In this document: in pieces, positions 8,491 through 58,882 of the stretch
Layout: each line of letters starts with the position of its first letter
Numbering within the stretch: position 1 is the first letter of the stretch
Source: Bursaphelenchus xylophilus
Taxonomy: Eukaryota; Nematoda; Chromadorea; Rhabditida; Aphelenchoididae
Reading direction: 5' to 3'
Assembly: GCA_904066235.2 (NCBI GenBank)
Contig: CAJFCV020000004.1
Span: forward strand, 6,386,001 to 6,450,000
Length of the DNA stretch: 64,000 bases
The notes under the pieces: model-generated
Database searches by the model: none
Told to the model about the DNA's origin: nothing
The model's input: only the letters and a program-made list of their open reading frames with translations
Made by a program: the position numbers and the translations under genes

Positions 8491-9049
8491 CAAGGAAAGT
8501 ACTTCTATGGGGTGTGGAGTTACAGGTCGAGATATATATCAAAAAATTCGCAAAAATTTTCTGATTCAGAATATATAAAAATTAGCTGCCTAATTTTGGT
8601 CTGATGACATGTTTTTGTCCTCAGAAGTTTTCTCGCGACACCATGCAAGTGTCTTTTTGACCGTGTTTTTACCAATAAAAAATTTTTGTTTTGTGCTAAA
8701 ATAAATTCTGAGGCCTTGACAAGCCTTAAAATATCAAATTAGATTAGAACAACACCTTAGAAGTAGTTCCAATGTAAAAAATGGGTTCTAGTGTGGCAAA
8801 AGGGATCGAACCCGTCCCCTTCGGATTCCCAATCTAGCGCTCTACACCGCTCTCTTCCGAAGGAAGAGACCGAGCGCGCTTTTGTTGCCGCAGATTTTTT
8901 TCCTCGAGAAATACATTTATTGATAAAACTCGTAGGTAGACCAAAATTAGGCAGCTAATTTTTATATATTCTGAATCAGAAAATTTTTGCGAATTTTTTG
9001 ATATATATCTCGACCTGTAACTCCACACCCCATAGAAGTACTTTCCTCG
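8491..9049. mobile_element. Fold-back element A, tRNA-like core, TGA target duplication
   Basis: The element is 559 bases. The left arm (8491-8605) and right arm (8937-9049) are inverted copies of about 113 bases. The ends read CAAGGAAAGTAC and, inverted, CGAGGAAAGTAC, flanked on both sides by TGA. The interior has no long ORF but carries a tRNA-like stretch on the minus strand. The same end sequence and layout recur at 22818 and 43896. Confidence 0.85.
8790..8868 (-). other. tRNA-like sequence inside element A
   Basis: On the minus strand a perfect B-box (GGTTCGATCCC) lies near 8804-8814. An A-box-like stretch (GTGTAGAGCGC) lies upstream, near 8840-8850, with GGGAATCCGAAG between. The acceptor stem does not pair cleanly, so this is a tRNA-derived relic or Pol III promoter, not a functional tRNA gene. 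Confidence 0.55.
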
Positions 9050-9059
9050 TGAAAACGGT

Positions 9060-9966
9060 TCCTGGGACGACTTTACCACATTTGACAGCCATTTTTTCGA
9101 GGCTTCAAAGCCATTCTGACACTTTGGATAGTCGATTTAGATTTTGGCTAGCGTTAAAAAATATAGTTGTGAATTCAAAAAAAGAATGTTGCAACATTGA
9201 CTATACATATCGGGCCAATGCGCGATCTGCCCCAAATGAAATCACCCCAAATGAAGGGTAGCCGTTATTTGGCCATGGATGGTTTGCACATTTCCCTTGT
9301 TAGGACATTGTTTGAGACATTTCTTCCAATCTTCAGTTTCTCAGTTTATATAAATGATATTGCCGAAATACGGAGTCTGATTATGTACACAACAGAGATA
9401 TACCCAACACGAAAGAAACCTTTTGTATGAATGATACGTGGTGATAGATTAATAACATGACCCTTTACAGATAGACGAAATACCAATTACAATAATCGGC
9501 GGACCGGATGGAATGAAGCGAAGACAGAGAAAGAAAGAATACGGTAATCAATATACGGACGGTTAGTTACAATTTTTCTTTTTCAATCCAGTCAAAAGCG
9601 GCAATCTCAATCCAAGGTTAACTTTAGAGTGAATTGTAGTGGATCTAGCGGAAAGTAGGCGTAAAATTTTGGTCAAAAAATGCCAAATTCAGCCTTAACT
9701 TTTGGGCAAGACCCGCCAGCCCAAACTTAGCTTTGGACTGAATTTGCCGCTTTTGGCTGGCTGAAAAGCAAAAATTAAAACTAACCATTCATTTATATAA
9801 TAGAAGCGATGGGAGGAGGCTATGGCTGGACAGAGAGGCCGACCTGTCGCCTGACTACGTCTTAAAAGTCGTGGTATGTGAGAGGGACCCGAGGTATAAC
9901 CGACGCATATTTCCCGCATATGCCTTCCCCTCCGTCACTCCTCCCCATCGGACATCAACAAGGAAG
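9060..9966. other. Repeat remnants, no gene
   Basis: The stretch at about 9089-9135 (TTTTTCGAGGCTTCA, CTGACACTTTGG) recurs in the intron repeat at about 60430-60460. A small inverted repeat joins about 9594-9630 with about 9715-9755 (AAAAGCGGCAA and its complement). No coding exon is supported. Confidence 0.4.
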
Positions 9967-12058
9967 TCAAACAGATATTCCGGCCAAGGCCAGATCATGC
10001 TCCAGGAAGTCGGTGAACAGGTCGATCTGTTGTCGAAAGCTCCGTAGACAGGCCAACATGTGTTGTTTCCTTTGGGTATCACTCATTTGGGCAAGGATAT
10101 TACGCATGTCAAGAATAGGGGGCAAGGGAACACTCGCACTTCGTTCTGTTCCACTTGGTTCGGCTTCTAATGATGGACTTGTGGCTCCATCAAGAGAGGC
10201 GTGGGGTTCGGAGGCTGAGGAATGGGAGCCTCCCATTACAGTTTGTTCCACCCAATCAGCTTCGGTCTTTACCATTGTGGCCGGCTCATCAAAATCCAAC
10301 TCCAGATCAGGGGATCGATTCATTGAGTTTATGGATGAATCGAAGCCGAGGTCATCCATCTGAGGGAATAGTCGAACATATTCTTGTTCAATTGGAGTCC
10401 AATTCACTGCTCTACCTCTTCTAAAATATAAGAAATGAAAAATAACGTCGAAAGGTCGTCAGTTCAAGTGTTTATGGAAAGGCCATCAAATGCTTCCATC
10501 AATGAAATATTAATTAAATGTAATACGGTAGCCGAAGCTGACTTTTAATAATTTTTAAGTAAATTACCATGCATTTTGTGAACTTAAATAGTATTCAACA
10601 AGCTGATAATAGCTCGCCGGGGGATGGTTGGGCTTGAAGGGTTACGGTAACAAAGTAATCGTATTCAAAAAATGCAGGTATTTTCCGATTTTTTTTGGAA
10701 TTTGAAGAACGGCAGAGATTTAACTATTACGATTTGAGAGAGAGGTTTCCGTAGCATAAAAAATTTTTTATTTTCTAGTTCTGGGGTTATTCGGCCTATG
10801 TCATCATCGACTAAAAAATTTTGAATTCCATCGATTGCGACAAAGAATGGGGTAAAGAGACTCCGTAAGGCAAAAACTCATTGAAATATTTAAATATGGC
10901 CCGATAAACTAGGGTCGCAATCGAAGGACTCCAAAAAATTCTGCCAAAAAAACAGCGAAACCCCGTTCTTTGCAACTATCAGTCTGTGGGGAAAATACTG
11001 GCGGGTCGTCGGGCCTTGGAACTGAAAAATTTTCTCAAGATTTTTAACCAAACGTAAATATAAAAAGATTGGGATGCCAAATTGGTACCGGTTTTAGGAT
11101 TTTTAAAAATATGCTAAATTTGCTTTTTCGCGTTTTGTGTCATTTCGGTATCACCGTTTCTATTTATCTATATTTTTTTCAAAAAAGGTAGGAAAGCGTT
11201 TTAGCGTCTTGCTTCAGAACAAACGGTGCTGTCTTATTTCTTCGCCCTTAGTAAATGGTTACCTTCACAAAATGTTGTTGCCCAGCGGAGGCTATTAAGC
11301 TTTTGCAATATGTTTATAGCGTTGTCCGCTACAACGCGCCAGCGGACAATTAAAAATTCTAATTATAAAAAGAGCACACTCGACCAGTCCAAAAAATATT
11401 GGACACAATATTTATCAAGCGTGGCTTCTTTTTTGATGCTGAAAATGAGCACGGGCATTTCCGACGTGAGAAATATTATGCTCAAGAGAAGAAGTCATAA
11501 TAACTTTAATGCTATCTCAGCATAATAGAATATAAATCGACTTTTTTGTAACCTTGTTTGGATGTTTTTCCCTCACGGTATTTCAAGCCTTTAGGGCTTT
11601 TTTGCAAACATATAATATCTTCCTATACAGTACTCGAGATTTATCCGTAACAGTCTCATCTTTCTACTACGTAAGAACCTAAAGTTATCGCCTGCCGAAA
11701 AAGTCATCCGTTTTTGAGATAAATAAATTAGAGTATTCCGTCAATACCTCGGAAAATTAAACCACGCTCCAAAACAAAAAAAAAAAAAATTATACGTTAA
11801 AAGTTCAAGTAATTTAAAAAACTAAAAGTAGACTCACCTTTCCATGTCATGCTTCAATTTGACCAGACTTTTGATATTGGAGATCCTCTTCTTCCACTGT
11901 GCCACTGTCAGATTGCGAGTGTTCTGTTTGTTAAGCTGATGTGCAATCTCTTGCCAAACCTCTGATCGTATTCGCGGTCCTTCCGCAATGTGGGCCGCCT
12001 TGTAGGCGCGGACGAGAAGCAGCGCGGCCTGTTCGTCGATCTCGGTTATACCCTTCAT
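9967..12058 (-). CDS. Myb/SANT-like DNA-binding domain protein
   Basis: Two exons: 12058-11838 and 10420-9967, joined in phase 2 across a 1417-base intron. Exon 1 is almost entirely a Myb/SANT-like (zeste/MSANTD type) domain: LLLVRAYKAAHIAEGPRIRS, then EVWQEIAHQLNKQN and VAQWKKRISNIKSLVK. Its conserved tryptophans and basic third helix are consistent with DNA binding. Exon 2 adds an acidic, Ser/Pro-rich middle and a C-terminal helix (RKQHMLACLRSFRQQIDLF) that may dimerise. The total is about 225 residues. It is a probable transcription regulator with unknown targets. The intron is unusually long for this genome and contains no ORF. Confidence 0.75.
10421..11837 (-). other. Long intron of the Myb/SANT-like gene
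   Basis: The intron is 1417 bases and AT-rich. A weak inverted repeat joins about 10840-10865 and 10960-10985 (TTGCGACAAAGAATGGGG and a diverged complement). No ORF or clear terminal repeats were found. Confidence 0.5.
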
Positions 12059-14354
12059 CGTGCTGCAACGGAATGACTACAAGCTGCTTGGAGGCGCCTC
12101 GGGGCCTAATAGAAAAGACAAATAGAAGTCACGACCTATTTTCGCTCGAAACAGATAGTCAAGTTAAGGTGGGGCCTGAGGCAAGGGAAAATATTGGGAA
12201 GAAAGGAAGGGATTGGAACGTCGCGGAAATTACCTGATTGAACACACCGAGGTTGTTGTTGTTATATGCTAGCGAACAATGGGGGAAATAGAGGCTTTCT
12301 CGGGAGGCGGTGGTTGCAAGAAAGAGAATGCGACAAAGACTTTTTGGAGAGTGCGGACCCAAAAAATAAATTCTCGAGAAAGAAGCCCCGTTCTCGAACC
12401 CGAGCTAGATAGATAGATAGAACAGAAAGCAACTGAAATCAAAGGCTTCTCCCTCTTGCTCTTTCTTCGGAGTGAAAGCGAAAGCCCCTTTCTCTTGCCT
12501 CCTTATGCCTCAAACACGGATCGGACGACGCGCATCGCCTTTGTCCGATTGGAACCAAACACGGGAATAGCGGGGTTATATTGTTGTTGTCTCGGCTCAC
12601 ACAGATTCCCAACCCCTCCCGGAAATCACCTTAACACAGTCAGCAAAGAAGGACGGACCACCTCAAAAGAACTTGTCCTTTTTGTTCAAATTCCATCCGA
12701 AAAGAAGAAATGTACGATATGGTATTTGGGAACATAAAGGTAAGACAAAGACGGCCATCTACAATAGCGGACGTTTCCATCGGAAATAAAACAAAATCAG
12801 TCACCAAAATAGTACAACATTGCTCAAGGGATACTGTAACATAGGCAGCAATGTGATATCCGATAAGTAAGCATATCAGATATTATATGTACATGTCTTA
12901 TGCCCTTATCTCGGAAGCCCCTGGACAAAGCCAATCTCATAATAAATCTTGTCCTCAAACCCCTATTTCTTGGCCTTGGAGACCATTATAAAACAAATAC
13001 AAATTTTTAGATGAAACGTTTTCTTGAATAAAACTTCTTACCGTAATAATGGGTTACGTAATCTGTTCGAAAAGGGAAGAATGTCAATTATAAAATAAAA
13101 CCTTTGGGACTAGAGACGTGAGGCATTTTAGAGCCATAGCATGGTCTCGGTACCAGGGTTTGTACTCAAAGAAATTGTTATCTCTCATCGCTTTATTGTA
13201 GTAAAAGTATGATTTGTAATCCAAAACATGGGAGAGTGGCCACGAAAAAGTTGACTTTGGCCTTTGGAAGGAGCGTGAAGTAACTACTAATTACGAAATT
13301 ACAATTTCAGCTATTTTCGAGAGTAATGGTAAAACTAACAATTGGTTCGTACAAAAATAAAATCTTTTGAATTCTTTTCTTCGGGCGACCGTCGCCTTGA
13401 CTATTGTGTTATATAACTGTTTAGGCAAGCAAAAGTCAACTCCAGAATACTTTTTTGTGGAGAATAAAAGTTTCCGGTGCCCAGAAATTAAATTTTCTTC
13501 CAGGAAAGCTGGGCTTAATCCCTCCAGAAGATGGCTAGCCTATTTTTAGTGGCCTCCCAGATCTTGACTGTTGCAATCTTTTGTGCGTAAGTGGCTGCTA
13601 TTGCGTAATGTAAACAGGATTGTAACCGTTTTGTAGCCTGCAATCCCTCCCTCCCTCCTCGGCCCTACAATTATTCATGCCCTAATTATAAAACGCAGAC
13701 CCCAGTGACACATAAACGCATATACAGCAGGAAAGGGCGGTAGAAACATACGAAATCGAGATGCCTCGGCACGCTCTTTAATGCGTATAGATTATAACCA
13801 GGGAGCCGGGAATGTGCCTGTCCATTTCCCTGATTGACAACAATAAGGAGGTCTTTCTCAATGAAAGCTGCTTTCTTTCCCCTAAGGCGGCTAACGGGGG
13901 GAGGTGGCCAGGTTTCAAAAGCCCCTTCCCTTCTTTCTTTAAACACGCATAATGCCCAAGCTCATCCGGCCGCTAAGCAGGCGGCCAGGTCTTAATGATT
14001 GAATCCGCATAAAGTATGGAAGGGATGGCCTACCTCTATCGTGATATCTGGCATTGTTAAGTAGGCTATTAACAACGGAATATTAATCAAAGTTTGATTA
14101 CAATCTAATGCCATACAAATAACACATGAGACAAGCAATCAGACGGATCGTGTAAAGTAATGTAAATGGCGTGCTTAAGAAGGCAGAGGGATCCCGGGTA
14201 AGATATCCCAACACTTAGAGCAGTCTTCTTAGGACTCGTATTACCAATGAAATGGCCGTTTCCCATTGTTCCTGGATTATAAAATTTTTTGATTTTTTGA
14301 GATTAGAAAAGAAAAATTATTTTATAAATACCATTAACCTGAGGACCCGATGTT
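12059..14354. other. Intergenic region with promoter-like GC-rich part
   Basis: This lies between the divergent Myb/SANT-like and GTPase genes. It includes a (GATA)n-type tract at about 12405-12420. A possible signal-peptide exon starts at 13532 (see findings). Otherwise no coding exon or repeat was recognised. Confidence 0.45.
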
Positions 14355-15691: not shown

Positions 15692-16401
15692 AGGAACTGA
15701 AATCTGTTTACTTAGGCAAATGTTATGTGGTCTTTGATGAGATGAACATTAAGATAATGCTCTCTTTGGTCGTCAATTTGATTATTGATTTTCCTTTCGT
15801 TGCGTCCCAATTATATCCTGTTCCTTTCTTACGCAACATACCATCATTTTTACTGCATCCATAAATCCCATTTTTCCCGATTTATGGGGAGGAAATGCAC
15901 CTTCGGGCTTTATAAATTTATATTTTCGTTTTTTGAAGCTCTTTTTACCGTAGTCTAATTTGGAAAAGTTTTCGTTTCATTTTGTTGTCAAATGGTTGTC
16001 AGTAATCAAATGGATTCGCCTAAATATTGTTAATGTAATCGGGAAGAGGAATTGAATTAACACCACCGAATGTTACATACACTCACTGAGACCCGGGCGG
16101 AGAACTAAACTAATGGAAAATAATCAAAAAAGCAGCCGGCAGGGGTAAAAGACCGGAAGTGCCGGTTTGGCCACCATTTTTAAAAAGCCATAAAGAAGGG
16201 GAATTTCTGAAAAGTGTGGTACTGATTCTGAAGGCGCTTCCCTCCGGGCCCCCTTCTTTTTTAGGTAAGGGCCGAACTGTCAGAAAAACGGCCGCGGAAA
16301 TGGAAAGACGTAGCAGACTCGATTAATGAGAAATTGGAGCTTGATTGGTGCCTCCACTTCCCATCTTAGCTCCTTATGCTATTCCACGTGTGGTTGTCAT
16401 C
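15692..16401. other. Intergenic, no gene seen
   Basis: Spacer between the GTPase gene and the GPCR gene. It presumably holds the GPCR promoter. No repeat or exon was recognised. Confidence 0.4.
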
Positions 16402-17985: not shown

Positions 17986-18067
17986 AAATTTAAATTATGC
18001 GTAATAAATTTTTATCTACAGTGATCGTTCGATTATCAAAGGCGTCAAAAAAGGTTGCAAGAAATTA

Positions 18068-21922: not shown

Positions 21923-24900
21923 CATGTTGGACGAGAATGGGGCCATCATTCATTACAGTGCTCCATCAACAAGTCAGTCTGCCTACGCTGCAAGTACGTC
22001 CAATTCTTTTAAATGACGTGGATTTAGACAAAGCCAAAGAGTTTCATTTTCAAAATGTTTCTTTGACGGATTATGGTGTGTCTGATTTTATTATGGAGCC
22101 AGTTCTCAAAAGCATTTGTGATCCACATAAAAAAGGATTTGTTCGATTCATATCAGTCAAAAAAGTGATCAATGGAGAATTGGACGAGAAGTTTCAGAAG
22201 AAACAAAACGACTTCATGTCGATGGGAATCCCTTCCGAATTTGAATACGGATTTTTTTGTTTGACGGGAGTCAGTAGTAAAGAGGTAAGCTCAACTTGAA
22301 AGTCTTTAATCATTCCTAGGAAGAAGATTTTTGTAGGTTCGGACTTAAAACAGGTACAAATTATATGGGCGAAATTGGAGATGCCACTGAAGGTAAGTAA
22401 AGTTTAATAGTTTTCATCTTTTCTTAGGGATTTACTTTTCCCGGTATGCTGATGTCAGTAGTCCAGCGTTGTTCATGAGTGGCCAACCAGTGAGAATGCT
22501 GGTTTGTAAAGTATTGCTGGGAAGGGCCAAGAAGGTAATCCCTCAACCGAATAAGACTGGCTGGAAGATTTGTCCTGATAGGAATTTTAATTCTCATATC
22601 TCAGCAGATACAAACCTTAATTTAGCCGATCAACCTCCTCATATCAGATACAGACATTCACAGGTATAGGATTGCGAAATTATTTACAATAAATTGCAGA
22701 TGTTTGTCTACGAGTTTGATCGAAGTGGAAGGACCACCGTGGATCGGCCAGCAAGTATATTTCCTATGGCTATCATTAGCTTAGATATTGCAAAACCAGG
22801 GTACGTTTTTTCGTTTACAAGGAAAGAAAAGTACTTCTATGTGATGTGGAGGTATAGGTCGAGACATATATCAAAAAAATCGCAAAATTATGCTGAACAA
22901 GAATATGTAAAAATTGGCTGTCCAATTTTTGTAAAGGCGAAAACAGCGTCAAAACCACGCAAACGCGCTTGTTTGAAAAAGTTTTTGCCAATTTGATAAT
23001 TTTATTTTGAGCTAAGGTAAACTCTAGCGGCTTTACAAGCCCTTTTAAACAATCAAATTTTAGTACACTTTAACAGTGGTTCCAATGTAAAAAAAGGAGT
23101 TCTACGCCAAAGAGGATCGAACCCGTGGGCAGCCTTTCCCATCGGATTCTCGCTTTTCATGTCACGAATTTTCATTTATTGATAAAACTTGTTGATAGAC
23201 CAAAATTGGGGAGCTAATTTTTACATATTCTCGTTCAGCATCATTGCGCGGATTTTTTGATATACAGGGCGGGCCACTCGAAACGGGTAACTTTTTTATT
23301 TGGATTTTCCGCAGAAACTCCGCCGATTTTTCTTAACCCTTTCCCGACGAGTCGGCACGTCTTGGCAAAAATCAAAGAAGGTACCCTACTGAGTAACAGC
23401 ATAATAGTGGTTCAGCCCGTCGAAGCGCTATTTGGGACTTATGACAAAAAATGTCCTAAAAAGTACCACTATTTGACATATAAGTTTTGAAATTATTTTG
23501 ACAAGCTATAGATCGGAAACTACCCCTAAGTTAAAGTCGCGGAGTCCTAGTATTGTTACATCCAAGAACTGTCCAAATTGGAGCACCATAGGATTTGTTA
23601 TCGATTTTTGGAAATTGAATTTTTAATTTTGGTCAATTTTCGACCTAAAATCAAATATCTCTTCCGCCGGTATTAACCATTTCGGTCCAAATGTGGTTTA
23701 TACGAAGCTATTGTGATGCTAGCTTCTTCCTAGAATGTTTCCACAAAAAACCTATGAGGAATATTCTGTAAAACGCGAAAATGTTGGAAGTGTAAATGTT
23801 TCATCGTATAACATGCCGCCGCGAGCCGATAAGGGACTGGCGCAGCTCGAAACGAGAAAATAATAATTTTTTTCGAGAAACATTATTTTAGTGTCGAAAA
23901 GCTGATTTCAACACGAAGTACAGGCAGAAATAGCACGCAAACTAAATGTCGTTTTTATATTTTTACTCTGTTTTCAGGCAATTTCATTCGAGTTTAATTT
24001 GGTTTCATGCTAAAATCAAACTTCTCGAAACATTTTAAAATAGCTTCTGGTTTCGAGCTTCGAGCTGCGTCTGTCACTTCTCGGCTCGCGGCGACATTTT
24101 ATTCGATGAAACATTTAAACTTTCAGCATTTTCGCGTTTTATAGAAATATGCCTCATAGGGTTTTTCTGGAAACATTGTAGGAAGAAGCTAGCATCACAA
24201 TAGATTCGGAAAAACCACAGTTGGACCGAAATGGTTAATACTGGAGGAAGATATATATGATTTTAGGTCGAAAATTGACCAAAATTAAAAATATAATTTC
24301 CAAAAATCGATATCAAATTCTATAGTGCTCTAATTTGGACAGTTCTTAGATGTAACAATACTAGGACTCCTCGACTTTAGTGGTAGTTTCCGATCTATAG
24401 CGTGTCACAAAAATTTCAAAACTTATATGTCAAATAGGGGTACTTTTCCTGACATTTTTTGTCATAAGTCTCAAATTGCGCTTCGGTAGGCTGAACCACT
24501 GTTATGCCGTTACTCAGTAGGGTACCCTCTTTCATTTTTACCAATACTATCGCGCACCAAATCTCCAGCTGCGGCCGCCGTCGAAAAGCGATGATGGGCG
24601 ATTCCGAGACGCGACGATCCGCGGTTATTTTCCCGACGGACTGATAAACCCTGTTTTTAGGCCGGATTTATTAAATCTAATGTCTATCAAATTACACGCG
24701 TCAACAGTATGGAATGGCACCCTTCAAGTTCAAAGTCAGACTGTCAAACACGTAACTCTACACTCTCACCATAATCTAATGTCCCGGCCGAGAGGTCTCG
24801 ATTCCTTGAATATTCCTTATATCCTCTCATATTCAAGCATGATGAACTTTCATCCGTTTGCTTCACTCTTCAACGATGACAAGATGGGATTATTGATGAG

Positions 24901-42606: not shown

Positions 42607-43806
42607 CACTGCAGGATGAGCCAAGTCTTTCTCCTTGGATGGTCAAGTCTCCCTCTCAAATTTTTATTTTTTCAAGATTAATATAAATGTCTTTATGTTT
42701 TAATCTACATATATGGACAGGACAATAACTCAAAAAGTAAGTTAAATTATCTCTCTTTCTGACTATACAAAACTTTTTTCGATTACATATTGTTATTATT
42801 GCGCATTTAGGCATTATAGAAGGTGCATAAATTTAGGTAAATGCTGTTCGTTCTTGACATTAGACGAACAACATTCGAAAGTCTTACCCCAAAAAGAACT
42901 GCCGTCGAGCCTTCTTCGTGCCAAAATTATTTCAGCATGAAAATGATCTACAGTTTTTTTGTTGATTAGATTTTTGATATTACACTAGGTACTTTTGTAA
43001 GTTTAAGGCGAGATTAGGTCACGTTTTACGTCATATAAGGTCTAAATGGACAATAAAACTTTCTTTTAACATTCTTAACGTCGTAACAGTGATTTCCCCC
43101 TTTTATTGTCGTTTTTGATTTTTTTTCAGATTTTAGGTATGGAACAATTTTTATGTATCCGCGGCCATAGATGCGTATTAATACTTCGCAAACCATATTT
43201 CAAAGGTCCCTGGTCGATCTAAAACATGTTTAAAACAGTATGAGAGGTATTTGAGACTTTTTTAGATCCAGGTTGTACTTGATCACTTACACCCTAAGAC
43301 ATCTCAAACCCTGGTTTGAAAGAATATTTATGTTGGTGACGGTTTAGTAATGGCTCAGCTTTGTAGTTTTCCGGGTTTAAACTTCAAAAACATTAGATTT
43401 TGCCTGCAACTTGACAAAAGTACCTAGTGTAATATCAAAAATCTAATCAACAAAAAAACTGTAGATCATTTTCATGCTGAAATAATTTTGGCACGAAGAA
43501 GGCTCGACGGCAGTTCTTTTTTGGGGTAAGACTTTCGAATGTTGTTCGTCTAATGTCAAGAACGAACAGCATTTACCTAAATTTATGCACCTTCTATAAT
43601 GCCTAAATGCGCAATAATAACAATATGTAATCGAAAAAAGTTTTGTATAGTCAGAAAGAGAGATAATTTAACTTACTTTTTGAGTTATTGTCCTGTCCAT
43701 ATATGTAGATTAAAACATAAAGACATTTATATTAATCTTGAAAAAATAAAAATTTGAGAGGGAGACTTGACCATCCAAGGAGAAAGACTTGGCTCATCCT
43801 GCAGTG
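42607..43806. mobile_element. Near-perfect palindromic element with CACTGCAGG ends
   Basis: Inverted arms of about 390 bases (42607-42996 and 43413-43806) are almost identical, differing by about one base over most of their length. CAATA flanks both sides (42602-42606 and 43807-43811). The central 420 bases are unique. No ORF. The near identity of the arms implies recent insertion or ongoing arm homogenisation. Confidence 0.85.
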
Positions 43807-43895: not shown

Positions 43896-44467
43896 CAAGG
43901 AAAGTACTTTTATGGGGGCTCTTACTTTTTGACGGGACATATCTTAAAAAATCAGAAAAAATGTGCTGATCAAGGAAATATAAATCTTAGTTGCCCAGTT
44001 TAGGTTTTTAGGGGTGAAAACTCAATCGGAAGTTGACTTAAAGTCCTATATGAACCCCTTTTCGCTTAATTTTTCACTGGTTTACAATTTTTGTTTTGGC
44101 TTAAAATGATGTTTATTGAGTTTCTAAGACGTAATAAATCAGTCTTGGCATAAAAATTTATTTTTCAGACCTTCAACTTCAAAAAAAGTTGATTCGGCCC
44201 AAAAGGGAAATTGAACCCGTGCGGCGTCCTCCCTCTTGATTCCAGACTACGGCGCTAGCCACTCGGCCATGCCGCTCTCTTACGAAAAAGGACCGACTGC
44301 GCTTTTCATCGTTTCTTTTGTAGGGAAATTAAGCCAGTTTTTGGGCATTTTCACCCCTAAAAACCTAAAATGGGCAGCTAATTTTTATATATCCTTGATC
44401 AGCACATTGTTTTGATTTTTTGAGATATGTCCTATCAAAAAGTAGGAGCCCCCATAAAAGTTCCTTG
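43896..44467. mobile_element. Fold-back element C, tRNA-like core, TTA target duplication
   Basis: The ends are CAAGGAAAGTAC and the inverse CAAGGAACTTTTATGGGGG, with TTA on both sides (43893-43895 and 44468-44470). Arms of about 120 bases share GGGGTGAAAA and GATCAGCACA-type blocks. A tRNA-like stretch lies inside on the minus strand. The element is 572 bases, close to element A in size. Confidence 0.85.
44192..44278 (-). other. tRNA-like sequence (Leu/Ser-like shape) in element C
   Basis: On the minus strand the A-box is perfect (TGGCCGAGTGG) and the B-box is nearly so (GGTTCAATTTC). An extended variable region lies between, as in type II tRNAs. The acceptor stem does not pair well. This is a tRNA-derived relic within the transposon. 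Confidence 0.6.
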
Positions 44468-47666: not shown

Positions 47667-50600
47667 ATGCACCGCCGTGGAAAGCCCGTGACCATGGTAT
47701 GTGATAACAGTATAGTACAAGGTATTGGAATTTAGAATTTGGAACAATGGATGATCCCGAGGTTTGAAGAAACAATCCAAGCCGGACCAGGTTGGAACTC
47801 TACCTTTTCCACAACAACGAGGAAAAGTTCCATATCTAGGTTTGATGTTACTGATTGTTCTTTGTGGAGGAGCCGGGTAAGCGACTGTTTTTTCTTTTCA
47901 AAGATTCTAATTTGACTAAAAAATAATTTTCTTTCCTTTTTAGCAATACACTGTAGCCTTGGAAGAGGAAAGTCGGGCCAAGGAAAATATGCCTATGCCT
48001 GAAAGTTCGTTGTTGAAAAGCGGAGTAAGTGTTTAAAGGTGTAGTATCGTCTATTTGAGATAAGCATATATTCTCTTCTTTTTTTGCAGGAGAATGATGT
48101 ACTTGGAACCACCTTTCTAAATGTGACTGATGGAAGCCTATGGAGAACAAAAATTAATGGGAGCCGGGTAAGGGACTGTTTTTTCTTTTCAAAGATTCTA
48201 TATTTGACTAAAGAATAATTTTCTTTCCTTTTTAGCAAAACACTGTAGCCTTGGAAGAGGAAAGTCGCGCCAAGGAAAATATGCCTATGCCTGAAAGTTC
48301 GTTGTTGAAAAGCGGAGTAAGTGTTTAAAGGTGTAGTATCGTCTATTTGAGATAAGCATATATTCTCTTCTTTTTTTGCAGGAGAATGATGTCCTTGGAA
48401 CCACTTTTCTAAATGTGACTGATGGAAGCCTATGGAGAACAAAAATTAATGGGAGCCGGGTAAGGGACTGTTTTTTCTTTCAAAGATTCTATATTTGACT
48501 AACGAGGGAATGGTCTGAACTTCCCCCAGCGTTTGGGAAAATGACTAGTACAGGCGGATAGGGCAGGTCAACTTTAGTAAAAAGAGCCATTTTCCAGCTG
48601 CGAAATAAGCCTAGCCGACGAGAAAAATCGACCGAAAGTTCCACAAAAATTTCCTCTTTCTCTTCCCTCGGAAAGAAGAGCGGTGTCCAGTGGTTCGGTT
48701 AGCCGAGTGGATAAAGCATCCGCTCGATATTCTTTTGGGGGTTGGTTCGATTCCGGGGTCTCGCGAAGGAACGTGATAAGGCTTTGATGAGCGAGATCAA
48801 ACTCTAACAACCCAAAAAAATTTATTTTGCCTTTTTCAAAGTCAAGTCTATCACAAACAAGTATAACTTTGACGTTTCATCGCTTTGAAGGTTCGGAAGC
48901 ACCCAAAAATTCATTTGTTGACGATTATTGTTTTGGTATAATGCCTCTAAAAACGTATAAAAATGGCAAAACATTTTTTTTGGGTTGTTAGAGTTTGATC
49001 TCGCTCATCAAAGCCTTATCACGTTCCTTCGCGAGACCCCGGAATCGAACCAACCCCCAAAAGAATATCGAGCGGATGCTTTATCCACTCGGCTAACCGA
49101 ACCACTGGACACCGCTCTTTTTTTCCGAGGGAAGAGAAAGAGGAAATTTTTGTGGAACTTTCGGTCGATTTTTCTCGTCGGCTAGGCTTATTTCGCAGCT
49201 GGAAATTGTCTCTTTTTACTAAAGTTGACATGTTCTATCCACCTGTACTGGTCATTTTCCAAACGCTGGGGGAAGTTCAGACCATTTCCTCGTAAAGAAT
49301 AATTTTCTTTCCTTTTTAGCAAAACACTGTAGCCTTGGAAGAGGAAAGTCGCGCCAAGGAAAATATGCCTATGCCTGAAAGTTCGTTGTTGAAAAGCGGA
49401 GTAAGTATTTAAAGGTGTAGTATCATCTATTTGAGGTAGGCATACGTTCTCTTCTTTTTTTTGCAGGAGAATGATGTACTTGGAACCACTTTTCTAAATG
49501 TGACTGATGGAAGCCTATGGAGAACAAAAATTAATAGCAGCCGGGTAAGCGACTGTTTTTTTCTTTTCAAAGATTCTAATTTGACTAACAAGGGATCGGC
49601 AAAACCGCGCATCCTGGTTTTTTCTTGAGACATACACCATTTGAAAGAGCGTAAAAAACTGGTCTAGGATCACATTTTATTAGCTGCTATTTTCGCTCTA
49701 CGACTTAGCTAACGAGCGCTCTTTAGTTCTAGGTTTATCTCACCTTTTTCCGAGGAAACAAATCCGAACGGTTTCCAAAGCACAGCGCAGCAGTGCTTCG
49801 GTGGCATAGTGGGGTAAGGCGCTGAACAAGGCGAACCTGCAGACCGGGTCCGAAACCCCCTTTGATCTTTTTTGATTTTTTCAATATTACAAACCAAATA
49901 AGGTCTGGAAGTAGTGTTTGAGTTTCGTATAGATATTTGTAGTATAATGGGAGCTGTTTTTTAACAAAAACCGAGATTTTTTTTCATTCTTTCGAATTTA
50001 TAGTCCTTGCCCTTGAAGTGGGTATTATGGCTGAAATTTTCAACGGCTTCCAAATTTTTAAGAGTAAAGTCAGGTAAGCTTGATCTAGGAAAGTACGTTA
50101 AAATTGAGTCTGAAAACGGTTTACATGTTTTCTACCCGCTATGTTGCATTGGGTTACACGACCTAAAAGATCGTGTGATCACATATTGTGAACATCGACT
50201 TGGGTATCTGAAGGTCGGAAAAAAGTATGTATTTTGCATAGGATGAAGCGTTGGACGTCATGGGTATTAGACATAAGAAAAGTAATTCTCCAATCTCTTT
50301 AGCCTTTCAAAAGCAAAGAGTCGTGAAATCCAACTAGGAATTTTTAAAAAATGCTCGCTAGCTAGGGCGTAAAGCAAAAATAGCAGCTAATAAAAGGTGA
50401 TCCTAGACCAGTTTTTTACGCTCTTTCAAATGGTGTATGTTTCAGGAAAAACCCAGGATGCGCGGTTTTGCCGATCCCTTCTAACAATAAGGAATAATTT
50501 TCTTTCCTTTTTAGCAATGCACTGTAGCATTGGAAGAGGAAAGTCGGGCCAAGGAAAATATGCCTATGCCTGAAAGTTCGTTGTTGAAAAGCGGAGTAAG

Positions 50601-53548
50601 TGTAGATAAATGCAATTGAGATAAGCATATATTTTCTTCTTTTTTGCAGGAGAGTGATGTCATTGGAACCACTTTTCAAAATGTGACTGATGGAAGTCTA
50701 TGGAGAACAAAAATTAATAGGAGCCGGGTAAGGGGCTGTTTTTTTTCAAAGATTCTATGTTTGACTAAAGAATAATTTTCTTTCCTTTTTAGCAATACAC
50801 TGCAGCCTCGGAAGAGGAATGTCGGGCCAAGGAAAATATGCCTATGCCTGAAAGTTCGTTGTTGAAAAGCGGAGTAAGTGTAGATAAATGCAATTGAGAT
50901 AAGCATATATTCTCTTCTTTTTTTGCAGGAGAATGATGTCCTTGGAACCACTTTTCAAAATGTGACTGATGGAAGTCTACGGAGAACAAAAATTAATCAT
51001 TCAGAAGCTTTACAAGAGCCTCCATTGCGCGAGGAGGAGGAATTAAGCGAAAATTTGATGAACTTATCAATGAGTGAATTCACTGGTCCCGTGAATCCGT
51101 TATTAAGAAAGTTTTCATCAAATTTGGCCCAGAAATCTCGACAGAGTCTAATGCCTTTGGATCCGAGAAGGCCTTCGGTGCCACGGATGTCCCTCGGTCC
51201 AATGTTCAGGAATTTGAGTCTGAAACGGAAATCTTCATTAAATTCGGAGATTTCGAACGGTTCATCTCCTCATACATCAAGTGGAAGATCTTCCAGAACG
51301 TCTGAGCCGTCCACTCCGAGGTCACCGGCTAGGAAGGTTATGAGTTTGGTAAGCGATAATTATTTGGTTGATTCAAAAGTTTTCGCCATTTTTTGTGACA
51401 CTTTAAAAAAAAATCCAGATCATGATTGAATGTATGTTTAAAATGAAAGCATATATGTACGGGGTAGACCTTTGCAAAATTCCAGAATATTTCAAAAACA
51501 TAAAAAAAATCTCCGTTTGTGTCAAGGTGAGTATCCCGGAGCCTAGTAATTTTCCGGCTCACTAAAAAATTCCGGGTTTGGTGTTATTCGTACTTGGGAT
51601 GACAGTAGTTTCTTGTGAAAGTATTGCTTTACTTATATGTATCTACTCTGGCGTTTTTTGCAGCGTCTCATAAATTTGAGAGCCGAGTTCTCGATCGAAG
51701 GCAGATTTTAAAAAAAAATTTTTTTGGAAGGGGTTCGATGTTGTAAGAAGCTGTTAATCTAAGGTAATCCACAAGCAGCCCCAGCATATATATCGGGCAA
51801 ATTGGCATTGGTTGAAATTTTTAAAAAATTTAAAGACATGGCGGGAAACTTTTGAATCAACCTAACATTTAAAGCAAATTACGGTGTTTTAACTTTTAGA
51901 CCAAAAAATCTTCCCCGAAATTGGTGGATCGAGTCAGGATTATGGAGCTGATAAAAGCGGCACAGGAAAAAAGTTATGCATCGCCAACGATCTCATCCCT
52001 CAGCAAGTCGAAAAGTGATTTTGGATCTCCTGATTTTCAAGTAGTATTAAACCCGGGGAAGAGACGGGACAACAAGGAAGGGAGGTCATCAGCATTGGAG
52101 ATGATCGCTTACAATTATCAGACACCAACTCGGGATGAAAGAAATCGTCCCTTGGAAGAAGAAGAACTGTTGAGTGGCCCAATCCCTTCACAGCCGGCTC
52201 GGCTTAGTCATTCCGTCAATCCTAGGATTCTGTTTGATGGAGAGGGTGGGTTTTTAGGGATACTTTTCGTGTTCTATATAGTTATTTAGAAACGGTAATC
52301 AATTCGGGGGATCTTTTATCTCAGCCAATTCAAAGTCAGAAGAACCAGCCGCTGGGTTTCCTGAATGAGAGTGACATTACTTTGGGTTCAGAGTCCCCGC
52401 TAAGGAAGGAGGATGTCAGAATCTCGACTGGGCATCTTCCCAGCGAAAGTCACTTCTTCTCTGATTCTGTGGTTGGTCTAGAGTTCTGTGAAGACTTACC
52501 CGGATCGAGTCAAGACAGTGGATTCGATTCAACTAAAATAATGTCATTTGCGAGAGAATCAGACGACACGGGGGCGTCCCTCCAATTAGAAGAAGGTCTC
52601 AGATCTCCAGCTCCAAAACATCTTGTTATCGCCGCAAAGAAACAAAAACCATTGAAAGAAGCCAAGATTAGACCTCCGAAAATAGTTGTCGTGAGTTTTG
52701 TTTCATTTGTACAAGCTGGGAGATTTTTGCGGCCCGATTTAAATTGGCTATGACTTCTTTACTTTTTGGTCCAAATCTTAAGATTTTTCCCTTAATCGGA
52801 TGTTAAAGTTGTCTGTCTGAAAATGGAACATAGTGTTGAACAAAAAAGTCAGACTGTCGTTTGGTGTGGCTGTAGATACTCAAATTCAAAGGGTTATGGG
52901 CGTTGGAAAATACAGTTTTTACCTAATTTTGTCCATAAATTTCGATTTTTTTGGCAAATTTCACCTTTGTTTGGGCCCAAAACGTTGACTCAATTTTGCG
53001 GATTTCAAAATTTTCTATCTTCTACCGTTCCCGAGATATATCCGATTTTCGAGAATTTTTTAATTTTATTCATCTGTATAGCATATTCGGTATCAAGAAA
53101 AGCGGGAGATTCTGAGGGCTCGGGAAAAAAGAATATTTGGCTGAAAAATAAAGAAGTTATAGCCAATTGCAATTGAAATTGGGCCGCAAATTGCCTTACC
53201 CTATTTATAACTTTTTTTTTTTTAATTTTAGGGCGCTGATGAATTTGCATCGGATCATAATTTGAGAAGGTCGACGAGAACAAGACCAACGCGGCGACTG
53301 AATCATGGTGCTGGAGAACGTCTGATCTACTCTCCTGGAGGATGTAAGTTGATCCTCTATGGAATGCTGTATTTTTAGCTGTTATTGGAATTGAACAGGG
53401 CAAAATCTATCATCCTTTATGTATAAAGTACAATACACCTGATCTTGCGAAGGCTTTTGAAATGGATAAGAAGGCGAAAAAAAATAGAGCTGAGATGAGG
53501 AAGGTGCAGAGGGAAGGACGAAATCAGAGACTCGCCCAGTCTCAGTAA
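47667..53548 (+). CDS. CENP-C-like centromere protein candidate with five tandem exon pairs
   Basis: Exon 1 (47667-47696) and exon 2 (47736-47876) are followed by five copies of an 81-base exon and a 78-base exon. The 81-base exons start at 47944, 48236, 49320, 50515 and 50793. The 78-base exons start at 48090, 48382, 49467, 50650 and 50929, the last fused to a long exon ending 51348. Further exons are at 51900, about 52290-52690, 53232-53343 and 53379-53548. All repeat exons are phase 0. Repeat motifs are EEESRAKENMPMPESSLLKS and NVTDGSLWRTKIN. Near the C-terminus RRSTRTRPTRRLNHGAGERL plus IYSPGG resembles the CENP-C motif, which binds the CENP-A nucleosome. The rest is Ser/Pro-rich and disordered-looking. 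No cupin domain follows, only a basic 60-residue tail. The assignment rests on that motif. Confidence 0.6.
48680..48762 (+). other. tRNA-like sequence in left arm of element D
   Basis: The A-box TAGCCGAGTGG (about 48700-48710) and a perfect B-box GGTTCGATTCC (about 48744-48754) are present. The anticodon arm is not canonical. The inverted copy is at 49035-49117. Confidence 0.6.
49035..49117 (-). other. tRNA-like sequence in right arm of element D
   Basis: Inverted copy of the 48680-48762 sequence, nearly identical, with both box motifs intact on the minus strand. Confidence 0.6.
49589..50481. mobile_element. Fold-back element E, tRNA-like core, TAA duplication
   Basis: It is 893 bases, in the next copy of the repeated intron of the CENP-C-like gene. 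The ends are CAAGGGATCGG and, inverted, GAAGGGATCGG. TAA lies on both sides (49586-49588 and 50482-50484). The arms are about 130 bases (49589-49718 and 50352-50481). The interior has a tRNA-like unit on the plus strand. Confidence 0.85.
49793..49862 (+). other. tRNA-like sequence in element E
   Basis: TGGCATAGTGGGG is an A-box-like stretch. CGGGTCCGAAACCCC is a T-arm/B-box with one deviation. GCGCTGAACAAGGCG could form an anticodon-like arm. No functional tRNA is claimed. Confidence 0.5.
52700..53215. repeat. Diverged element of the H family in an intron
   Basis: The left side (GCGGCCCGATTTAAATTGGC) and the inverted right side (GCCAATTGCAATTGAAATTG then GGGCCGCAAATTGC) resemble the ends of the 26200-26893 element. 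Terminal CAGGG bases are eroded. It makes up most of the 541-base intron 52691-53231. Confidence 0.6.
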
Positions 53549-53696
53549 TTAAAGTATTGTGTAACGGTCTGAATTGTTATGTTATTACTCACAATATATG
53601 TACATTTTTTACTTTTATGTTTAAAAATTAAATAATTTTGTTTATGCAAATTAAGTAAGAAACGGAAAGTTCCATTTTTAAACAATTTGTGGAGCG

Positions 53697-54631
53697 ATGG
53701 CTGTTCACCCAAGAGATCCGATGGCGTCGTTGAAGTTGCCTTTATCTCTCCGAGATCTGCCTAAATCAGTTCTGACTTCGAGTTCCAGCCCTCCTCAGAA
53801 GTCCGATCCCAAATTTCCGGAATTTACTCACGGAATAGGTGTCGTCTTCGATTATCAGACGTATTTCAAGAAGAAGAGAGACAAGCATTCCGGGATTAAA
53901 CTTAATTCGGCCTTGGAATTCACCGCTAAACTCGAAAGGTATGCGATCAGAATGGCCAAGGAAAACTCGAGTAAGTGGATAAGCTTTGGGGACTGAGTCT
54001 GGATGGGGTTCCGAGAACATACCACTTGTGGTCAGCAGGCCAAATGTTAATCGGTTTCTATTTTCTCTCGGCTTATTAATCCCCTCCGGATTAAACATGT
54101 TGTAGCATGTGCATGGGAGTGATTGCGTCATCTCCATTTCAGAGATTAATCGGCTTCTTCGCCCGAAACATCCAAATCTGGCCCCCAAATGTTCGATTTG
54201 CGAACTTTTTCTGTTAGAGAACCCAGCTACCGTATACTTCCACATTTGTGAGTTGCCTCCTAATACTAACTTTATAAAAATGATGATTAATTTATTGATC
54301 ATTACGTTTTAGGGTCCTCGGATACAAAAAATGCAATGTCCTTGAGTTGGAATCAGGTCCCCAGAAATGTGGCCAAGGAGATTGGCGATGGCGAGGTAAC
54401 AAAGCCGGCCAGAAAATATGGTTTCAGTATCTGAGTGGCCCCGTAGATTTGTGTAATAGTTGTACGGAGACGATGAAATGGGCTCAAGAAAGAATCGAAT
54501 GGCATCGGATGAAGAGGAACATCAGGAATGGGAAGGACCTACCGGCTATTTGTGATCTCTACACTCAGTTACAGACTGCGATGAGATTAGTCCATTTTTG
54601 TTCTATCGAATATAATCTGGCCTTACAATAA
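53697..54631 (+). CDS. Unrecognised protein with a CxxC...CxxC zinc-finger-like pattern
   Basis: Exons: 53697-53970, 54143-54247, 54313-54395 and 54428-54631, with a 32-base intron between the last two. The N-terminus is Ser/Pro-rich, then comes a conserved-looking region (FTHGIGVVFDYQTYFKKKRD). After that KCSICELF and, about 55 residues later, DLCNSCTETMKW could bind one zinc ion. A basic helical segment (RIEWHRMKRNIRNGK) follows. The Cys pairs recall GATA-type fingers, but the spacing is too long and I do not assign a family. The gene starts 148 bases after the CENP-C-like gene, so the two may share an operon. Confidence 0.6.
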
Positions 54632-55030
54632 GTTATATTTTGTGACATTTCCAATAACAACCAAAACCTGAGGGTCCCAAAATAATTAGGTTATATTTTG
54701 GATATACATAGATCAGACCACCCACGAAGACATCCTTGCCTAGGGACTTCCAAAAAAGAGCCAACAATTATTTAAAATTCGGATCCAAAAATCTTCGGAA
54801 ATTGCTCAGAAAATTTATTTTTTTGGAAAAGGATTACTAAATTAACTAAACTGCAAAAAGTAGGAATTGAGCTCAAAAGTACAGAATGATCGTCAATCTC
54901 CCCCGCGGACTCTAAAATAAGTCAGAGATGGCCTTTGAGCTGATGGCCAATTAGCAGGTTCACCATGCTATTTCACGTCCCTTTGACATTTGTTTTTGTT
55001 TTCAGACACCCCAATTCGAACGCATCAAGA

Positions 55031-55387
55031 ATGCTGCAGCTCGAGGCTAATCTTCAAGTCCACAGGGATTCCGTTGAACGAATTGGGTAAGCCGTAATGA
55101 CATGCGTTGATAAAAGAAAGGTCAATTTTATTGTATTATAATATCGTTGTAGGAAGGAAATTGCGGCCCTTCGAGGACTCCCTTCGATCCGAGAGAATGG
55201 CCATGAACTCTTGTTGTACTCGAATATTAGACAATACAGTAGCTACTTCCTCAAAGTAAGCATCTTTTTTATTGTTTATGTCATCACGGAACTCAAAACG
55301 GCCTCTTTAGAAGTACTTCCTTTTTGTTGACTTATCTTAATAGTTAATTAATTGCAGAAAGTTTTCTATTCTTACGATATCCTTTAA
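55031..55387 (+). CDS. Small unrecognised helical protein (about 62 residues)
   Basis: Possible exons 55031-55086, 55153-55255 and 55358-55387. They join in frame as MLQLEANLQVHRDSVERIG, KEIAALRGLPSIRENGHELL, then LYSNIRQYSSYFL and KKVFYSYDIL. The first half has a heptad-like pattern typical of a short coiled coil. TTTTCAG lies just upstream at about 55005-55011 and could be a trans-splice acceptor, or these could be extra exons of the gene before. No family was recognised. Confidence 0.4.
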
Positions 55388-56827
55388 TCTTGCATAATAT
55401 TTGAGCTTTACTGGAAAAAAATTAAAACACAATCTCCGAGATAGCCGTGATGACGTAACAACCAGTGTCCCCGATCTAAATTTATATTCAAGGAGACGAA
55501 ACAAGATTGGGTGGTCGAAAGAACGGCCGAAGTCGAGGAAACGGACCGTTCTCATGTCATTTCTTGGGCCAAGATCCGTCATTTACTTTGTGGCTAGAGC
55601 AAATAAAAGTGTAATATTCAGACCGGAAGAGCAGATTGTTTCGGGTACGACTAATTAAAACTAATTGGACGCTGGGGACTGCGCATTTGCACCTCCGACT
55701 GACCGAGTCTGGCCTTCAAACTCTCGGCCAGACTGTTTCTTACGTGTCTCCGCAGATACGACGTCGAGTAGGAGGCGACTGTTTACGCCATACCGTACTC
55801 GCACATACTAGAGAGGCCGGCTTCGGTTTCATCCTTTACCTGCCGGATAAATTATTCATATCCCGCCCTGTTCCGACGTATTATCGCTCTGTTCTTTCTT
55901 GTTATTTTTATTAATCACAATCTCCCGGACCCCTTTCCCACCCTCGGGTGTAACAATTAACCCCCGTGTTTGTCTAAGAGCCCAACTTTTTGCTTATTTG
56001 CTGTTTCAGCCTAATCCGACGCGATCTTCCAGACCAAGTCCCCGATTTTTTTGATGACATTTAAAATTCCCCTGATGTTCTTTATACTTTAATTGGAAGC
56101 CATTGTCACCTTGGAATGCTGACCTTTTGCCTTTATATGGAATTTGATTGTTCTGGAGCTGTTCTTGAATACTTTTAATATCTTTTTTCCAATTGTCCTT
56201 TGTGTCATCCTCACCTCGGGATTTCCCATTTTGATTTCTTTTTCTTTTCTCTGCAGATTCTTTGCAACTTTTACAATTACAGTAATCCCCCGCCCTTTTT
56301 TATTGGAATTTCACATTTTTTAAGGCCGGATCTGAGGCCACGGGCCTTAATTCCCTGCGGACATTCGATGTAAACATGAATATGTGTTTTTACACCGACA
56401 TACGATGCCGTCCAATTAAGTGAGTGATATCAATTTAGTACTTTTGTAGATAATACCGCGCGGAAATGCCCCCATTTGGTTATATTTTGTGCCGTGTATG
56501 GTCATCTACATCAACAGGGGGTTTGTTTTTTGTTCTCAGATTTGATCAGTACATTTACAGTTTTCTTTTTCATGCAGTCCGTTGGTAGTAGGTGTAGAGT
56601 ATAATAATGATTCCTTTGCTTGGACATTACCAGTTATTTGTTGTGTTCTTTTTTGGGGATAACTTGATTATAAATGGTCTCTGTCAAACATCTAGTCCTT
56701 CTCCAACATCAGACCCTTTTCTGATGAGATTACTCTGCCGAGAGACCCATTTAAGTATGCGCGATGACGTGTTATACCTACATCAAGATGTAAGGGAAGG
56801 GATTGCAGATACACGGAACGTCGGGTA
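55388..56827. other. Intergenic, GPCR upstream region
   Basis: No repeat or confident exon. An ORF at 56607-56828 begins with a hydrophobic segment but ends in TAA overlapping the GPCR start codon. I found no splice that joins it in frame to the receptor. Confidence 0.35.
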
Positions 56828-58021
56828 ATGTGGGCCCTCTTGATCGTATCGGGGATTTACATCTTGACCTTCGCCTTCGGGACGGCGGGGAATCTCTGGG
56901 TGATGGTTTCCATGGTCCGAAGCAGGTGAGTGAATCCTAGCCGCGTCTATGAAGGTATCTGCAGAGTCTGTCACATCCCCTCACAACGACCCTGCTCACC
57001 CAGAGAGCGTTCTCGAGTCTTCATTTTCTTCCTGGCTGTGGCTGATTTCATCGTTTTATTGACGATTCCGTTCTCTTTATCCCAAAATCTCCAGGTGGAT
57101 TGGCCTTTTGGATCAGTGGTAAGTAATTTGATTAAGGAAATCACAAGCGTCTTTTCCCGAATTGCTTGATATTATAATAATGTTTCAGTTGTGCCGCTTG
57201 CACGCAGCTATAGATTACAGCGGTAAATTCTTCTCGGTGGTGATTCTGATGTCAATGAGTATCGAGAGATATCTGATTGTGTGTACCAGGTGGAGATACG
57301 TGACCTCTCCGAAGGTGATTATGACCATCCCTCTGGTGATGGGCGTCCTCTTCTCGGTGATCGTTCCCATTATCCCTCAGGTCATTTACACTCGTCTTCT
57401 GACTGTTGTCATGGAAGGGCGGGATCATAGAGTCTGTTATCAATCGATCCCCACCCAACTCTCCCCCATGTACACCTCATACACATTCGCGGTGGGATTC
57501 GCGATACCCTTGTGTGTGATGACCATCTGTTATATACAACTGGTGCAACATGTCAGAAAGAAATTCCGAGAACGAAAACAGAGTAGAAGTAAGTGGAAAG
57601 GGGATTACTGTAGCTCGGATTCCATGATTTCAGCCAGCTCTCAACGTCCCAAATACATGTGTGAGCTGACCCGATCGATCTGTCGGATTGCTGTGTTCCA
57701 TTTTAGTTGCTGGGCCCCGTTTTGGTTCTTTAATATGGCCCCAATTATCACAGAATCTCTTGAATGGAATGTGCTTTTGGAGGGCAAAACATGGTTTGAA
57801 ATCGGGAAACTCTTTGCGAATATGCTCCCTTACATCAACTCAGCAGGTAGTAATCAGTAACGCTGATAAAAATAAAATTTCCAGGCAACTGTATCTTGTA
57901 TGCTTTTTTGAATCGTGACATCCGAAAACACATAATCTGGAGACCATCCAGCAGTAATGGCCGGACGATTACTGCCCTGCCCAGCGAGACCATCACCTTC
58001 AATCCATCTCCCACCACCTGA
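56828..58021 (+). CDS. Rhodopsin-family peptide-type GPCR (second)
   Basis: TM1 begins directly at the first in-frame ATG (MWALLIVSGIYILTFAFGTA then GNLWVM). The upstream frame stays open back to an acceptor-like TTGCAG at 56808, so a further exon for the extracellular N-terminus is likely missing. TM2 has LAVADFIVLLTIPF. TM3 ends in an ERY motif (SMSIERYLIVCTRWR). TM6 has FHFSCWAPFW. TM7 has NCILYAFLN, a variant of NPxxY. Introns join RSRTSSQRPKYM and INSAGNCILY. The layout is that of neuropeptide receptors; the ligand is unknown. The Cys after LQVDWPFGSVLC is the usual TM3 disulphide Cys. Confidence 0.83.
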
Positions 58022-58145
58022 TCGTCTCCAATCCAGATGCCAATATTTGTTATATCACTTCGTGCTACAGTCTGAATTACGGGTCACATCTTAATATGGG
58101 TCGGATAATAATTTAATTATTTTAATAAATATTTTAATGGACTCA

Positions 58146-58882
58146 CTAGGGAAGTGTACATACGAACCCTCACCAAATGATAAGTGACATACGTCATAGA
58201 AGAGCCCTTGAAAAATGGTACAAGGCACCATTTTCATTTTTTGCAGAATGCCTTTCCGCGACGACGTACTGTAAATTGTAAATATTAATTTTAGGTCATT
58301 TTGCAACAAAAATGTTTTTTTCTCTTGGGCAGGAAAAAATACTGGGGGAGGTTTGCTTCAATAGTTCAGTGGTTGCTGAGCCGGCTGATAAGCCAAACCA
58401 AGCCAGGTTCGGTTCCCAGCTTGGGCAAACTCATTTTTGCGTTCTTACAGCAAGGAAAATATTAGCGTTCAACTTTTACAAACCTTTTATTTCTTCTGGA
58501 ATACGGTCGATTACGGTTAAAACCATAAAACGTACATGTTTTAAGATTAAAAAAGTGGAAAGTGTTTTTTTCGTCTTATGGGTATTTGAAACCAGAAAAT
58601 AGCAAATGTAAAATGGCTTTACTGGCAAGCGCCAAACTTCATAATGATTCTTAGGCCAACCTAGTAGCAATACGTACCATTTAGCGTTTTGAAATAACAT
58701 TCATTCTGCCCCATAGCAGATGGATATTATAACTACTTAAGGGACAAATCAACCGCTTATAACTTTTTTCCCTGAGGCATTCTGCAAAAAATGAAAATGG
58801 TGTCTTGCACCATTTTTCAAGGGCTTTCCAATGGTGTATCACATTTGCGGTTTGGTGAGGGTTCGTTTGTACACTTCCCTAG
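58146..58882. mobile_element. Fold-back element F, tRNA-like core, TCA duplication
   Basis: It is 737 bases. The ends CTAGGGAAGTGTACA are perfect for 15 bases, with TCA on both sides (58143-58145 and 58883-58885). The arms are about 110 bases. The interior has a plus-strand tRNA-like unit (58351-58430). A solo arm of this family lies at 44595-44693. Confidence 0.9.
58351..58430 (+). other. Nearly complete tRNA-like sequence in element F
   Basis: A 7-bp acceptor-like stem (GTTTGCT with GGCAAAC, one G-T pair) closes an 80-base unit. It contains A-box-like TAGTTCAGTGGTTG and B-box-like AGGTTCGGTTCCC. The anticodon arm is not canonical (a 4-bp stem GGCT/AGCC with loop GATA), so a working tRNA is unlikely. 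Confidence 0.6.

Follow-up and report, generated by a model that had tools for sequence, protein, structure and literature searches.

A group of fold-back elements in the nematode Bursaphelenchus xylophilus consists of Tc4/Tc5-type DNA transposons and their deletion derivatives, which carry inward-pointing sequences resembling the A and B boxes of tRNA genes approximately 200 bp inside their ends. We have examined these elements in a window of 64,000 nucleotides (C4:6386001-6450000 of a genome of 78.25 Mb in 8 contigs), in which a sequence-only reading had pointed out six of them, termed here A to F, and at related loci elsewhere in the genome. The reading we favour, at a probability of roughly 0.6 and judged from sequence, is that these transposons carry a degenerate tRNA gene reduced to an RNA polymerase III (Pol III) promoter, which would have been inherited from one acquisition and kept through binding of TFIIIC and, probably, of Pol III.

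Results

Transposon class and transposase partners

The six window elements, each of which has the inverted-repeat structure proposed for it (6/6), lie at 8491..9049 (A, 559 bp, tRNA-like unit on the minus strand), 22818..23264 (B, no strand assigned), 43896..44467 (C, 572 bp, minus strand), 48503..49292 (D, 790 bp, no strand assigned), 49589..50481 (E, 893 bp, plus strand) and 58146..58882 (F, 737 bp, plus strand). Element A is a non-autonomous Tc4/Tc5-type element, B is a diverged and truncated relative of A which has lost its right end, and the long inverted-repeat arms of D are related to those of a transposase-bearing element, T1. As the sequence-only reading had it, the five complete elements have C.AGG ends and are flanked by target site duplications (TSDs) of the form TNA, being TGA for A, TTA for C, TAA for both D and E and TCA for F. 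A similarity search with A, C, D, E and F yielded 52 copies. Both ends could be located in 50, and 49 of these are flanked by an identical TNA, L067 being the exception. The full CTNAG site surrounds 28 of the 50 (D 22/30, F 3/4, E 2/5, C 1/4, A 0/7), and a preference for it is thus not shown in family A.

A search of the genome with the Pfam DDE_1 model detected one locus, inside element T1 (C2:2847065-2849706, 2642 bp). T1 is flanked by a TTA duplication in CTTAG, its arms are 98% identical over 348 bp and its transposase is encoded in two open exons matching Transp_Tc5_C (6.8e-13) and DDE_1 (7.1e-6, over the cut-off), with a weak match to HTH_Tnp_Tc5 below the cut-off; the last two catalytic aspartates are 37 residues apart (DD37D). 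The second exon of T1 gave 12 matches in the genome, the six strongest of which (E below 1e-29) were examined as transposase elements: T1 itself, T2 on C7 and at C3:5097992, and T3 at C3:1052408, C4:11121129 and C6:2911908. T2 on C7 contains a Tc5-type open frame of 449 amino acids (aa) that matches Transp_Tc5_C (1.6e-15) and, over the cut-off, HTH_Tnp_Tc5. In T3, Transp_Tc5_C is matched (2.5e-15) in a 147-aa remnant, and DDE_1 exceeds the cut-off in T1 only. In the other T2 and in all three T3 elements (T3 being 1.5-1.6 kb long) only shorter open frames of 147-180 aa remain at the match, and these copies appear to have lost internal sequence.

In L071, a copy of family C, the outermost 117 bp of both arms are 97% identical to those of T2; arm identity is ∼70-73% between A and T2 and 66-71% between D and T1. 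No transposase partner for E or F was identified among the elements examined, and no relative of the transposase was detected when contigs of prokaryotic genomes and of viruses were scanned. Combined with their terminal inverted repeats and C.AGG ends, these results identify the elements as Tc4/Tc5-type DNA transposons and deletion derivatives of them. The sequence-only reading had suggested an undescribed family; the kind is a known one, because fold-back structure (reported in 1991) together with TNA duplication at CTNAG constitutes the published signature of Tc4 (PMC11071193) and Tc5-type transposase partners are present in this genome.

Occurrence of the tRNA-like module

Position weight matrices for the A and B boxes were built from 21 distinct tRNAs of the genome; true tRNA genes, scored with the matrices that they themselves had trained, reach 27.1-35.7. 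Six box pairs in the window score at least 18, all of them in Tc4/Tc5-type elements, two in D and one each in A, C, E and F. The pairs of C, D, E and F reach 23.3-30.3. In C (44207..44269, minus strand, score 23.4) the inward-pointing A box lies 199 nt from the right end, in the left and right arms of D (48700..48754, plus strand, and 49041..49095, minus strand, each scoring 30.3) it lies 198 nt from the left and right end, respectively, and in E (49802..49857, plus strand, 23.3) and F (58362..58416, plus strand, 27.5) it lies 214 and 217 nt from the left end. The match in A (18.6) combines a good B box, kept at 8802-8812 on the minus strand, with a spurious A box, the true A box having been deleted in the window copy, and B, with a best score of 16.3, retains only a decayed B box. 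Thus, the earlier statement that both motifs occur in all six holds for four of the six, C, D, E and F. None of 693 background pieces of 171 bp outside the six elements reaches 18, the maximum being 17.4.

The association extends to the other copies. A pair scoring at least 18 was detected in 30/30 copies of D and 21/21 pieces of F (the window copy being included in each), in three further F copies, in 5/5 copies of E, in 27/27 pieces of A, 24 of which score at least 23, and in 12/12 pieces and five other copies of C. A strict search for elements with identical TNA, C.AGG ends and similar terminal 30 bp, in the window and in loci L001-L092 with four duplicate loci excluded, gave 54 elements, 53 of which carry the pair; these 54 are not an unbiased genome sample, having mostly been chosen by likeness to the window elements or by transposase, and T1, which spans two loci, is absent, as are window elements C and E, which fail the search criteria. 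The tRNA-like core is systematic, as the sequence-only reading had proposed, and neither of the outcomes it had named as telling against it, a majority of copies without the core or TSDs not of the form TNA, appeared in the copies examined. All six examined elements with a transposase or transposase remnant, whose arms are ∼340-400 bp long, carry the pair, five of them in both arms (in T3 copy L090 one arm only scores above 17), indicating that the module is part of the transposon and not an accident of short derivatives.

Consensus sequences of A, C, D, E1 and E2 each score above all of 300 dinucleotide shuffles. The F consensus does not, 44/300 shuffles scoring as high, because it was made from four copies and mixed subfamilies; singly, these four copies score 25.2-29.9. 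In seven families (A, D, E2, F, T1, T2 and T3) the mean score is 30.1, a level never approached in 100 shuffled sets of seven, whose mean did not exceed 14.1. It is therefore very improbable that the resemblance arose by chance or through insertion of short interspersed elements (SINEs) into fold-back elements, even though a tRNA covariance model detects nothing in the window and reaches only two of the scanned Tc4-type copies, below its cut-off. Chance would not be expected to separate the elements from the 693 background pieces and the shuffled sets to this degree, and mirror-image modules in both arms of D, T1, T2 and T3, within elements that have inverted-repeat ends, are unlike SINE insertion, SINE tails and duplications not having been specifically searched.

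Position and conservation among families

Distance from the first base of the A box to the element end was measured in one well-preserved, hand-chosen copy per family. The values fall within a narrow range, 198 nt in D, 199 in T1, 200 in T3, 202 in T2, 206 in A, 213 in F, 215 in E1 and E2 and 219 in C, and three further T2 and T3 copies gave 202 and 200. The module points inward in all nine families and subfamilies. In the seven families the standard deviation of position is 6.4 nt, the minimum in 100 dinucleotide-shuffled sets being 117. Identity across the seven is 0.79 in the A box and 0.89 in the B box, compared with 0.25-0.33 in neighbouring blocks; selection of best matches inflates box identity, and the same selection applied to shuffled sets gave maxima of 0.59 and 0.68, respectively. 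The constancy of position and orientation is best explained by retention from a common ancestor, and conservation of the boxes against randomised surroundings implies use.

Elements were also compared pairwise. Between E1 and E2 the core is 0.86 identical and the rest 0.74, with 137/830 windows as high, and a second E1/E2 pair gave 0.845 and 0.705 (107/828 windows as high); between A and C the values are 0.83 and 0.60, with 29/496 windows as high. Within family D, 30 copies selected as best matches to the window element differ from their consensus at 14/1320 positions in the boxes and at 490/15512 in the arms, a 3-fold reduction (P=0.02), and at 7/1198 positions in the terminal 20 bp.

Features kept and lost by the module

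The module resembles a tRNA gene in its boxes and their spacing but not over the full length of the tRNA. From A box to B box it spans 55-56 nt in A, D, E, F and T2, compared with 54-56 nt in true tRNA genes, and 61-67 nt in the cores of C, T1 and T3; an A box and a B box at such spacing would constitute a type 2 Pol III promoter. Cloverleaf pairing is eroded, with 2-5 of 7 acceptor stem pairs in ten Tc4-type cores compared with 6-7 of 7 in six true tRNAs, and 2-5 of 5 T stem pairs compared with 5, so that the intact cloverleaf of a tRNA gene is absent. No tRNA was detected in the window by ARAGORN at default settings or by Rfam. On the scanned loci with Tc4-type copies, the Rfam tRNA model reported only L002 (28.7 bits) and L007 (22.4 bits), both of family A and below the cut-off of 29; ARAGORN with lowered thresholds gave many calls scattered across the consensuses, which were not used. 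A full tRNA gene was rejected on these grounds. With its boxes conserved and its structure not well kept, the module is better read as a promoter or TFIIIC site than as a tRNA.

Runs of T following the module were surveyed in the nine families and subfamilies, one copy each and two for A. The first run of at least four T follows the B box at a distance of 0-2 nt in A, C, E1, E2 and T2; the distance is 17 nt in F and 56-70 nt in T1, T3 and D. Predicted transcripts would therefore be short, and Pol III transcripts of the hairpin arms, as envisaged in the sequence-only reading, are unlikely. A short tRNA-like or hairpin RNA, for example a decoy or a small-RNA precursor, could itself be the selected product in place of a bound promoter, and the immediate T-runs of A, C, E1, E2 and T2 would define a short 3' end for it; in addition, the 5' flank common to A and C can form a hairpin, as judged by eye. 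We consider this unlikely, as cloverleaf pairing is poorly kept and the flanks are at chance identity among the seven families, leaving no common RNA structure visible.

Related and neighbouring elements

In the loci examined, outside Tc4/Tc5-type elements, their fragments (judged by eye) and true tRNAs, matches scoring at least 20 were limited to one in L055 and a pair in a fold-back element, X, in L091. Element X (L091/L092, C3 about 1051927-1055344) starts with TTAA and has arms of ∼660 bp that are 96% identical, each containing a tRNA-like sequence (Rfam tRNA 32.2 and 28.2 bits). A T3 copy is inserted in its left arm at C|TTA|G, the uninterrupted site still being present in the right arm. 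The L055 match belongs to another inverted-repeat element with a tRNA-like module (1015-3159, boxes at 1241-1295, score 25.9), within which a D element is nested and a portion of a C element is also present. Nesting is also seen in L042 (1368-2746), where a D element lies inside an A-type element and gives their relative insertion ages.

In the window, tandem-duplicated units at 48400-50600, whose flanks share 96% identity across 113 and 77 nt, hold D and E at the same position, E occupying the same target site in its unit as D. Insertion of two different Tc4/Tc5-type families after GACTAA suggests a target hot spot. A long fold-back element at 42607-43806, in which a box pair scoring at least 18 is absent, has 289-bp arms that are 100% complementary and looks very young.

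Discussion

Combined, the results are consistent with the following course of events. One tRNA gene would have entered the arm of an ancestral element and would then have been inherited, giving a module that consists of an A box and a B box ∼200 bp inside the end, pointing inward and present once per arm in long-armed elements. Binding of TFIIIC, and probably of Pol III, would keep the module in place. The most likely benefit would be local, a TFIIIC complex located approximately one nucleosome-length from the end keeping the transposase-binding end open; alternatively, bound TFIIIC may shield the element from silencing. A short RNA of roughly 75-150 nt would be a by-product or a second product, and individual copies would decay after insertion like other DNA. 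A wider proposal, which we put forward tentatively as a possibility, is that the whole Tc4/Tc5 branch, in many nematodes, has a tRNA-gene promoter built into each end, and that TFIIIC, bound 200 bp within every terminal inverted repeat, opens or insulates the ends for transposition.

Several observations weigh against a module that was acquired once and kept through use. Element X is of a different fold-back type and possesses a similar module ∼436 nt from its end. Family C and T2 share their outer 117 bp and yet have different cores, so that exchange or re-acquisition is possible, and between B and A identity is lower in the core (0.62) than elsewhere (0.73). Mutation of the boxes is not below that of the surroundings in 27 pieces of A (P=0.90) or 21 pieces of F (P=0.53), a result which fits neutral decay after insertion. 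An altered last base of the B box is shared by 13 of 27 A copies, the commonest subfamily, and a perfect B box is therefore not needed for amplification. The 462-bp F derivative L048, the sole exception among the 54 strict elements, is without the module. In T1, T3 and D the sequence between the boxes contains TTTT, at which Pol III could terminate prematurely. Finally, a separate genome search with HTH_Tnp_Tc5 gave 7 matches, one of them in T2 on C7, and three of the six others (L080-L082) have neither boxes at a score of at least 17 nor arms of this kind; these three would appear to be other genes.

The first of these observations bear on repeated capture, in which tRNA genes, or modules derived from them, entered different elements independently or passed between elements by recombination. 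The different cores of C and its relative T2, the module of X and the variation of core sequence and A-B span among Tc4-type cores (55-67 nt) would all be accommodated. We regard it as rather unlikely, since a fixed distance of 198-219 nt and an inward orientation in nine families and subfamilies are not expected from independent events. The sequence-only reading had left repeated acquisition and retention side by side; retention is favoured by position and orientation, the differing cores of T2 and C remaining as a caveat.

The decay of the A and F boxes at the rate of their surroundings bears instead on a passive passenger, a tRNA gene captured once and inherited without use, which would also account for the like position and orientation in all families examined. 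Unused sequence should decay together with its neighbours, whereas identity has fallen to chance over as much as 60 nt preceding the A box and 40 nt following the B box while the boxes remain at 79-89%, which makes passive inheritance distinctly unlikely. The reading we retain as the most probable is that of a Pol III promoter acquired once and kept through TFIIIC binding.

DNA transposons are usually viewed as transposase genes together with transposase-binding ends. If the favoured reading is true, a Pol III promoter at a fixed place near the ends of otherwise unlike families would be a new functional part of transposons and would connect tRNA-gene chromatin with transposition in a new way. 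A nematode genome could also have received many TFIIIC-like sites through the spread of a DNA transposon; unconfirmed first-look counts of candidates, 40 of which were scored in each family, are 1025 for A, 792 for C, 163 for D, 128 for E and 154 for F.

With Tc4 of C. elegans and the TcMar-Tc4 group the elements share fold-back structure, the CTNAG target with TNA duplication and the DDD transposase, and they differ in the tRNA-like or Pol III module, which is unmentioned in the part of the Tc4 description available (PMC11071193). In open-licence literature, which lacks most subscription papers, no description of a tRNA-like module within the ends of Tc4/Tc5-type transposons was found. Tc5 of Caenorhabditis elegans also has long inverted repeats, and likeness to it is seen in the transposases, Transp_Tc5_C matching T1, T2 and T3 and HTH_Tnp_Tc5 being over the cut-off in T2 and below it in T1. 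Extra TFIIIC sites are A and B boxes that act as chromatin or boundary sites and are not tRNA genes. We know of none that are built-in parts of transposon ends, and a search of open-licence literature for extra TFIIIC sites in C. elegans found no such paper.

In tRNA-derived SINEs a degenerate tRNA retains conserved A and B boxes as a Pol III promoter, and in this respect the module described here resembles them. A SINE/tRNA-Deu-I class has been reported as present in B. xylophilus and absent in other nematodes (PMC11118728). This label may be a misreading of the DNA transposons described here, and SINE/tRNA labels in repeat annotation might conceal DNA transposons more generally. The elements differ from tRNA-derived SINEs in that the degenerate tRNA with its conserved boxes lies inside TNA-duplicating inverted-repeat elements, some of which have a transposase of their own.

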